64,000 nt of DNA from Gammaproteobacteria bacterium (GTDB taxonomy: Bacteria > Pseudomonadota > Gammaproteobacteria > Steroidobacterales > Steroidobacteraceae). The stretch is taken from the NCBI GenBank assembly GCA_005878835.1, contig VBMV01000052.1, positions 62,001-126,000 of the forward strand, in the 5' to 3' direction. The translations under genes and the position numbers were made by a program. Positions 32,595 through 37,371 of the stretch are shown here, piece after piece; positions within the stretch are counted from its first letter, which is position 1; every line of letters starts with the position of its first letter. The notes beneath the pieces are model-generated. The model did not search any database, was not told where the DNA came from, and saw only the letters and a list, made by a program, of their open reading frames with translations.

Positions 32595-35800
<3,206 letters not shown>

Positions 35801-37043: not shown

Positions 37044-37371
37044 GCCCGAGTGGCGGAATTGGTAGACGCAGCGGACTCAGACCAACGACTTGAGCCCTCG
37101 GGCGAGAAATCCCCGAGGTGAAGCCCGTCAAACTCGGCGAAGGCCCTTAGCGGTTCGCAGCTCGAGCTGATGCCGAGCCAAGCCTTCGCAAGCGCGAAGG
37201 AAGGTGTAGAGAGCAGACGGCGGGCACCTACGGCCTAGAAGGCCACGGTGAAGGCGTGCTCCAGACCACGAACCCGAGCGGGTGCTTGCGCCCGGGGCGG
37301 CGAAAGCCGAAGTGGCAGGAAAATCCGCCGCCTTTAAAAGCGTGTCGGTTCGACTCCGACCTCGGGCACCA
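37044..37371 (+). tRNA. tRNA-Leu(CAA) interrupted by a group I intron
   Basis: 5' exon 37044-37078: acceptor GCCCGAG, D-arm, and anticodon-stem half GCGGA followed by C-T-C. 3' exon 37320-37371: AAAA, stem half TCCGC, variable arm, T-arm GTCGGTTCGACTCCGAC, acceptor CTCGGGC and encoded ACCA. Joining the exons gives an 87-base tRNA whose seven-base anticodon loop reads CTCAAAA, so the anticodon is CAA (leucine UUG). The break falls after C34. Without splicing the tRNA cannot fold. The short protein frames over the region are artefacts of the tRNA. The promoter is not certain; a TATACT at 36998-37003 is a candidate -10. Confidence 0.93.
37079..37319 (+). ncRNA. Group I self-splicing intron (241 bases, Azoarcus/IC3-like) in tRNA-Leu(CAA)
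   Basis: The insert matches the known Azoarcus tRNA-Ile intron in its core, as I recall that sequence: GTCAAACTCGGCGAAGGC with TTAGCG (37128 onward; P3/P4 region), GCCGAGCCAAGCCTTCGC (P5-P6 side), AAGGTGTAGAGAGCAGACGG (P7/P3' side), GGTGAAGGCGTGCTCCAGAC and the GGCGAAAGCC hairpin near the 3' end. It ends in G (37319), the terminal omega-G. A P1 helix can form between exon GGACTC and intron GAGCCC (5 of 6 pairs), which gives a C-G pair at the 5' splice site in place of the usual U-G wobble. No homing endonuclease is encoded. Splice points come from tRNA folding and the omega-G rule. Confidence 0.9.

Follow-up and report, generated by a model that had tools for sequence, protein, structure and literature searches.

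The locus at positions 37044–37371 of the window (the whole 64,000-nucleotide stretch of DNA that was analysed) is a real tRNA-Leu(CAA) gene, in which a 241-nt group I intron is inserted after C34 (Table 1). ARAGORN run without introns called no tRNA at 37044–37371; with introns allowed, it called a tRNA-Leu(caa) with a 241-nt intron, and the joined exons gave an 87-nt tRNA-Leu(caa) cloverleaf. The joined exons are identical at 86 of 87 positions to an unsplit gene of the same genus (L044), and at 85 and 83 of 87 positions to the unsplit genes of two other relatives (L045 and L050, respectively). In a search of 60 genomes of the host's family, exon 1 and exon 2 were found directly contiguous in other genomes, and across the junction the unsplit genes of relatives read ...GGACTCAAAATCC...; these unsplit orthologues thus fix the intron/exon junction, and the split after C34 that an earlier note on this DNA had proposed is borne out. 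A pattern combining exon, guide and core matched once, and in 0 of 100 shuffles. A simple promoter scan of the locus recognised no promoter. The queuosine genes queA and tgt lie upstream, at window positions 32595–34762 (Pfam E = 9e-122 and 5e-154), and the queA region is found near tRNA-Leu(CAA) in relatives both with and without the intron.

Table 1. Features of the split tRNA-Leu(CAA) gene, in window coordinates, with the evidence for each
Feature	Position	Strand	Evidence
5′ exon, tRNA-Leu(CAA); 3′ limit is wobble base C34	37044–37078	+	ARAGORN on joined exons; unsplit orthologues
Group I intron, 241 nt; last base omega-G	37079–37319	+	Hold-out covariance model; covariation; empty site in relatives
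Internal guide sequence TTGAGCC	37090–37096	+	Sequence; alignment columns
P3, 5′ strand	37124–37129	+	97.1% of cells paired, 4/6 pairs with compensatory changes (23 introns)
P4, 5′ strand (3′ strand at 37172–37176)	37134–37138	+	99.1% of cells paired (23 introns)
P7, 5′ strand GAGCA, guanosine-binding helix	37211–37215	+	100% of cells paired, 3/5 pairs compensatory (23 introns)
P3, 3′ strand	37219–37224	+	Pair counts, 23 introns
J8/7 base G (A in introns with a C-G third P7 pair)	37256	+	Alignments
P7, 3′ strand TGCTC	37257–37261	+	Pair counts; P7 table
3′ exon, tRNA-Leu(CAA); first base A35, CCA encoded	37320–37371	+	ARAGORN; unsplit orthologues

Helices P1–P9 were mapped on the window's intron, and pairs were counted in two alignments, A1 (45 introns of its clade) and A2 (23 introns across clades). 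In A1, 96.1% of cells were paired and 16 of 47 pairs showed changes on both sides (shuffle mean 6.5); the corresponding values in A2 were 92.5% and 28 of 47 (shuffle mean 17.9). The covariation score of A2 was 0.395, compared with 0.172 for shuffles (reached by 0 of 500) and at most 0.100 for slid partners, a comparison in which the structure, drawn from the window's intron, is itself a bias over slid versions and in which related sequences can beat shuffles without structure. Changes on both sides fell in P3, P4, P5, P6 and P7 in A2; P6 and P8 were paired in 100% of cells, and the two pairs of P8 were invariant. The pseudoknotted P3/P7 core by which group I introns are recognised is therefore part of the insert, and the first, guanosine-binding pair of P7 is G-C in 22 of 23 introns and G-U in one. 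In A2, pairing was poor at the outermost P1 pair (10/23) and the first P5 pair, in parts of P2 and in the P8 extension; in A1, the weak points were the P8 extension and the inner pairs of P2. The L2 loop GAAA is invariant in both alignments (45/45 and 23/23); GAAA-type loops at L2 and L9 of IC3 tRNA introns dock on P8 and P5.

The guide is complementary to both exons. Its GAG can pair with C32-U33-C34 of the 5′ exon to form P1, including a C34-G pair, its CC can pair with G29-G30, and its TT can pair with A35-A36 of the 3′ exon (P10). The window's intron ends in omega-G, and C32-G and U33-A are paired in 23 of 23 introns; the rule by which introns were extracted required a final G and a RAG guide, and wider counts of omega-G and guide are not independent of it. 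The longest stop-free stretch within the intron, in any frame, is 63 codons, so the intron contains no endonuclease gene, as the earlier note had stated. The 83 distinct CAA introns collected below, at 216–280 nt, are too short to hold an endonuclease gene of the usual length, within a search pattern and a 520-nt rule limit that could exclude longer introns. In the same genus, the tRNA-Leu(UAA) intron at L291:948–1737 has reading frames on its antisense strand; an HNH endonuclease domain is encoded in one of them (E = 9e-6), and the neighbouring frame had no Pfam match.

The standard covariance model for group I introns, RF00028, gave no match to the locus at its gathering threshold (50 bits) and none at E ≤ 10, an outcome that the earlier note had taken to speak against a group I intron. 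However, the model also failed to reach threshold at any of 18 Leu(CAA)-intron loci (14 of the window's clade and four of other clades) or at any of seven Leu(UAA)-intron loci, and did so at one of two Ile-intron loci. A laxer run over ten loci gave five sub-threshold matches and, for the other five, none at E ≤ 1; one clade member, L098, had a sub-threshold match of 31.6 bits (E = 1.9e-4). In the same genome, RF00028 found another intron at 63.6 bits, the exons of which we read as tRNA-Ile(CAU). Because most of the related introns tested were missed as well, we read the silence of RF00028 at this locus as low sensitivity of the model, and its use as a membership test was dropped.

A separate hold-out model, R1, was therefore built on 28 introns. 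They are Leu(UAA) introns in 22 cases, Leu(CAA) introns from outside the window's CAA clade in five and an Ile intron in one; L200 and L202, two of the four UAA introns joined to that clade, and L249, the UAA intron of this genome, are among them. R1 found the window's intron at 108.1 bits (E = 1.9e-25, R1 E-values being rough by the tool's own statement) as its sole match in the 64 kb at E ≤ 10. It also detected all 14 of the other clade members on which it was run, and of three unsplit loci it matched none. Through this match to a model of other tRNA introns of the same type, the intron can be placed among IC3-like, or Azoarcus-type, introns. The Azoarcus-type core that the earlier note had recognised in the insert is thus found by R1 and its helices covary; the covariance-model check that it had suggested failed with RF00028 and succeeded with the model of closer introns. 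One implication is that these tRNA introns, which are not a rare set, escape the standard annotation model, and carrier genomes may therefore seem to be without tRNAs that they need.

The 5′ splice site departs from the common form. Position −1 is the anticodon base C34, which is paired C-G instead of U.G; to our knowledge, U.G at this site is near-universal in group I introns, as a common trait and not as part of their definition. The pair is C-G in all CAA introns of A2 (14/14) and A1 (45/45), and U-G in eight of the nine UAA introns of A2, the ninth being gapped by the aligner. The guide TTGAG is present in 83 of 83 distinct CAA introns, its TT not having been required by the search pattern. 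We considered a C.A wobble at the splice site, and a RAG-permitting pattern run over 150 genomes of the family returned GAG only; the wide scan required GAG, and C.A pairs outside this 150-genome search could escape it. Earlier work has reportedly dealt with rare natural introns of the C-G kind and with the effect of C at −1. With 83 introns carrying C and 49 carrying U at −1 of the same tRNA junction, the present set forms a natural comparative series for the long-standing question of why U.G is used at the 5′ splice site of group I introns.

A second peculiarity lies in the guanosine-binding site. The third P7 pair is G-C, preceded by G in J8/7, in all 76 introns of the window's CAA clade (74 taken from a table, L107 and L088 read by eye from A1; L088 has G-U as its first P7 pair). 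The same flipped pair and J8/7 G occur in four UAA introns (L199–L202), and the other 52 introns have C-G with A in J8/7. In Tetrahymena, the base triple of the guanosine site is A306-C266-G309, according to the accessible part of PMC10020454, and by our alignment the third P7 pair and the J8/7 base would be equivalent to this triple. As the 80 flipped introns form one clade, the switch may have happened once, in which case it would be a clean correlation and not repeated evolution. Compensation for C-G by the flipped pair is not borne out as a strict rule: the flip occurs with U34 in the four UAA introns, and is missing from seven CAA introns with C34 (six from Bdellovibrionota and one from an alphaproteobacterium). 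The flipped pair and the changed J8/7 base together present a testable, putative base-triple switch.

We propose the following course of splicing. In the precursor, GG.CUC in the 5′ exon would pair with the guide TTGAGCC, so that C34 faces G; a guanosine bound in P7 would then attack after C34, and the freed exon would attack after omega-G. Exon 2, beginning AA, would be held by UU of the guide in P10, and ligation would give the anticodon CAA. Self-excision, very probable for this intron, is inferred, as are its dependence on guanosine, use of the C-G pair as the splice site and a cellular need for the reaction.

Introns of this kind are widely distributed. The scan pattern, consisting of exon 1 with C34, the guide GAG and the core CAAA.TC, matched two of 369 genomes of the class, the window's genome being one of them. 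Applied to one genome per species, it matched at least 118 stretches, at least 78 of which resolved as split tRNA-Leu(CAA). By phylum, these 78 among the matches listed comprise 69 from Pseudomonadota, six from Bdellovibrionota, one labelled Mycobacterium and two without a phylum; by order, they comprise 29 from Burkholderiales, the most frequent where an order is given, six from Lysobacterales, five from Bdellovibrionales, three from Steroidobacterales, one from Mycobacteriales and 34 without an order. The Mycobacterium row, a 4.8-kb MAG contig with a Lysobacterales-like tRNA, is probably contamination. Among the remaining 40 listed stretches, L102 is cut by the end of the locus, L178 lacks a 3′ exon within reach, and the rest look unsplit or like chance matches by the bases after C34. 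The full set, including UAA introns, consists of 149 placements with at least 132 distinct introns (83 CAA and 49 UAA), after 53 placements had been dropped for having no second exon by rule.

Several members of this collection merit separate mention. L178, from Paralcaligenes ureilyticus, may be a decaying copy: the 5′ part of its split tRNA-Leu(CAA) is present, but no 3′ exon was found within reach. On a Burkholderiales MAG contig (L118:854–1693), two split leucine tRNA genes, one Leu(UAA) and the other Leu(CAA), are separated by about 590 bases. The Leu(CAA) introns of Bdellovibrionota (L091, L123, L132, L135, L186 and L188) have an extra hairpin that extends P1 and a different guide (TTGAGTGC). 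On IMG/VR contigs, 31 matches to a split tRNA-Leu(UAA) pattern (L218–L248) included 20 that resolved as split, with 18 distinct introns; four of these 20 viral contigs are 278–490 kb long, so tRNA introns occur on phage-like contigs. ARAGORN run with introns labels L039–L043 and L053, which are split Leu(UAA) genes, as Phe(GAA), and L265, L278–L281, L287–L290 and L292, read here as split Ile(CAU), as Gln(CTG).

Is the split gene the only source of its tRNA? No unsplit copy of tRNA-Leu(CAA), tRNA-Leu(UAA) or tRNA-Ile(CAU) had an exact-pattern match in the assembly (186 contigs, 95% complete), and an intact second tRNA-Leu(CAA), which the earlier note had said would, with this locus unexpressed, count against its reading, was thus not matched. 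Because tRNA-Phe(GAA), tRNA-Ile(GAU) and tRNA-Ala(UGC) are likewise missing among the 40 tRNA hits of this incomplete assembly, the absence of an unsplit copy is weak evidence for a single genome. Stronger evidence comes from the family: the CAA intron is present in 12 of 150 genomes, none of which matches the unsplit pattern, and that pattern is matched in 118 of the 150. The window's gene is thus probably the sole tRNA-Leu(CAA) gene.

The same may apply to two further tRNAs. In the window's genome, R1 detected at least three introns, at Leu(CAA), Leu(UAA) and Ile(CAU), with 150 of 1305 first-look candidates scored; the Ile(CAU) label (L001) is our own reading, ARAGORN calling no tRNA without introns and Gln with them. 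A wider sample of the genus has the same three intron hosts, and 17 of 21 genomes have at least one R1 match at E ≤ 0.01. Judging from these genes, decoding of UUA, UUG and AUA in this genome appears to depend on ribozymes. The earlier claim that the intron must self-splice for UUG decoding is too simple, because UUG is in principle also within reach of tRNA-Leu(UAA), whose gene is, however, split as well in this genome. We regard as unlikely, though worth stating, a broader proposal in which a widespread ribozyme lineage settled on C-G because position −1 is C34, and in which the UUR-Leu and AUA-Ile tRNAs of the genus depend on guanosine-using ribozymes, so that nucleotide level, through splicing, could control how UUR and AUA codons are read.

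Other readings of the locus fare poorly. A splice site elsewhere, for example after U33, would give another anticodon (GAA), and Phe(GAA) is indeed what ARAGORN calls six split leucine genes of the host's family. However, the anticodon region of unsplit orthologues is CTCAAAATCC, U33 faces an A of the guide in every intron of A2, and the cloverleaf has the long variable arm typical of leucine tRNAs, all of which makes a shifted splice site barely credible. The locus might also be a dead remnant, that is, a tRNA pseudogene holding a degraded intron, in which case another tRNA would read UUG. The replacement of U.G by C-G and the silence of RF00028 would fit such decay, which may occur, as the relative without a detectable 3′ exon suggests; yet the exons and core are intact, the core pairs covary, the layout is identical in 83 distinct CAA introns, and no unsplit CAA or UAA gene was matched in the genome, within the limits of the assembly. 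We therefore give a dead remnant very little credence, and hold with high confidence that the sole tRNA-Leu(CAA) gene found in the assembly carries a small IC3-like group I intron that is very likely functional.

The phylogeny of the introns suggests a mobile history. In a tree of 125 of 134 rows, leaving out two introns of Ile genes and seven viral-contig rows with long branches, the 76 CAA introns of the window's clade and the four UAA introns L199–L202 formed one clade with support of 100/99; the 76 CAA introns alone were not a clade in the tree, nor were they rejected as one (p = 0.386). By this tree, UAA introns are the closest kin of the CAA clade, so the intron moved from one leucine isoacceptor to another. 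Several independent invasions of tRNA-Leu(CAA), which a first tree suggested, are not claimed here; a single clade of all CAA introns was not rejected in a quick tree (p = 0.545) or a careful one (p = 0.089), both tests being run without the same nine rows. Host labels required 11 changes on the intron tree, compared with a least possible 3, and single clades were rejected for Lysobacterales-like (p = 0.038) and beta-like hosts (p = 0.0007), with labels assigned by our own rule from the exons (five rows as 'other') and a test chosen after an earlier tree. In the genus, genes with and without the intron both lie close to the same queA region. In a sample of 14 genomes from the genus, the CAA intron is present in nine, four match an unsplit gene in its place and one matches neither. 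This presence and absence and the conflict between intron tree and host lineage argue against simple vertical fixation, which the earlier note had suggested, and we read them as pointing to horizontal exchange and loss of the intron.

It could be asked whether one leucine intron of this genome was recently copied from the other, the Leu(UAA) intron having reverse-spliced into Leu(CAA). Both lie in the same genome at the same junction, and the four UAA introns of other genomes that join the CAA clade indicate that a move from one isoacceptor to another took place at some point. Against recent copying, the two introns are 71% identical (162 of 228 aligned columns) and fall in different supported sets, and the closest kin of the window's intron among the matches listed are CAA introns of other genomes (93% identical over 219 columns); the nearest named relative among these matches, L103 from an uncultured Steroidobacteraceae MAG, is 93% identical in the intron core, with upstream flanks 85–88% identical to the window's. 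Recent copying is accordingly highly improbable. A phage origin was also considered and rejected: L068, the one viral contig that matched a CAA pattern, has the bases of an unsplit gene after C34. Plasmid and phage searches with the intron returned six and two records, respectively, at 60–80% identity, none covering 80% of the query.

The window's intron can be set beside several known systems. The cyanobacterial tRNA-Leu(UAA) intron is similar in size and core, and has a TTGAG guide with GG-CC pairing; the Azoarcus tRNA-Ile(CAU) intron has a compact core of the same kind. A tRNA-Leu(UAA) intron of a gammaproteobacterium was reportedly described by Vepritskiy et al. in 2002; it would share a leucine tRNA and the host class with the window's intron, but its host is UAA, not CAA. 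Two Ile introns of our collection, L001 and L054, have T at −1 and the common form of P7. The tRNA-Leu(UAA) introns treated in the accessible parts of PMC3984707 and PMC4033280 likewise interrupt a leucine tRNA at the 34/35 junction, where the split tRNA-Leu(UAA) genes found here also carry their introns. The window's intron differs from them in its CAA host, C at −1, the C-G pair, the flipped third P7 pair and G in J8/7. The tRNA-Ile2 introns of Acidovorax and Burkholderia (PMC8450103) have this compact core too; in these and in the Azoarcus intron, the site lies after base 36 of another tRNA. Closest are the UAA introns L199–L202 of the same family, which form a clade with the CAA introns (as sister or nested within them) and share the P7 flip and J8/7 G, but have U34 and hence U.G at the splice site. 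The bacterial tRNA hosts of group I introns named in the accessible literature are Leu(UAA), fMet, Ile, Arg, Gly and Lys, and a group I intron database of 2025 started, by its accessible description, from the Rfam model at a loose threshold. No Leu(CAA) host came up in the passages of the open literature covered here; a prior description, for instance in subscription papers, is possible. The earlier note had held both host site and position to be different: the host stands, since CAA is unnamed among the bacterial hosts in this accessible literature, and the position does not; with UAA introns at the same 34/35 junction, only the isoacceptor is new. The intron is thus of a known kind, with a host isoacceptor, CAA, and a C-G splice site that are unusual and are present in many other bacteria.
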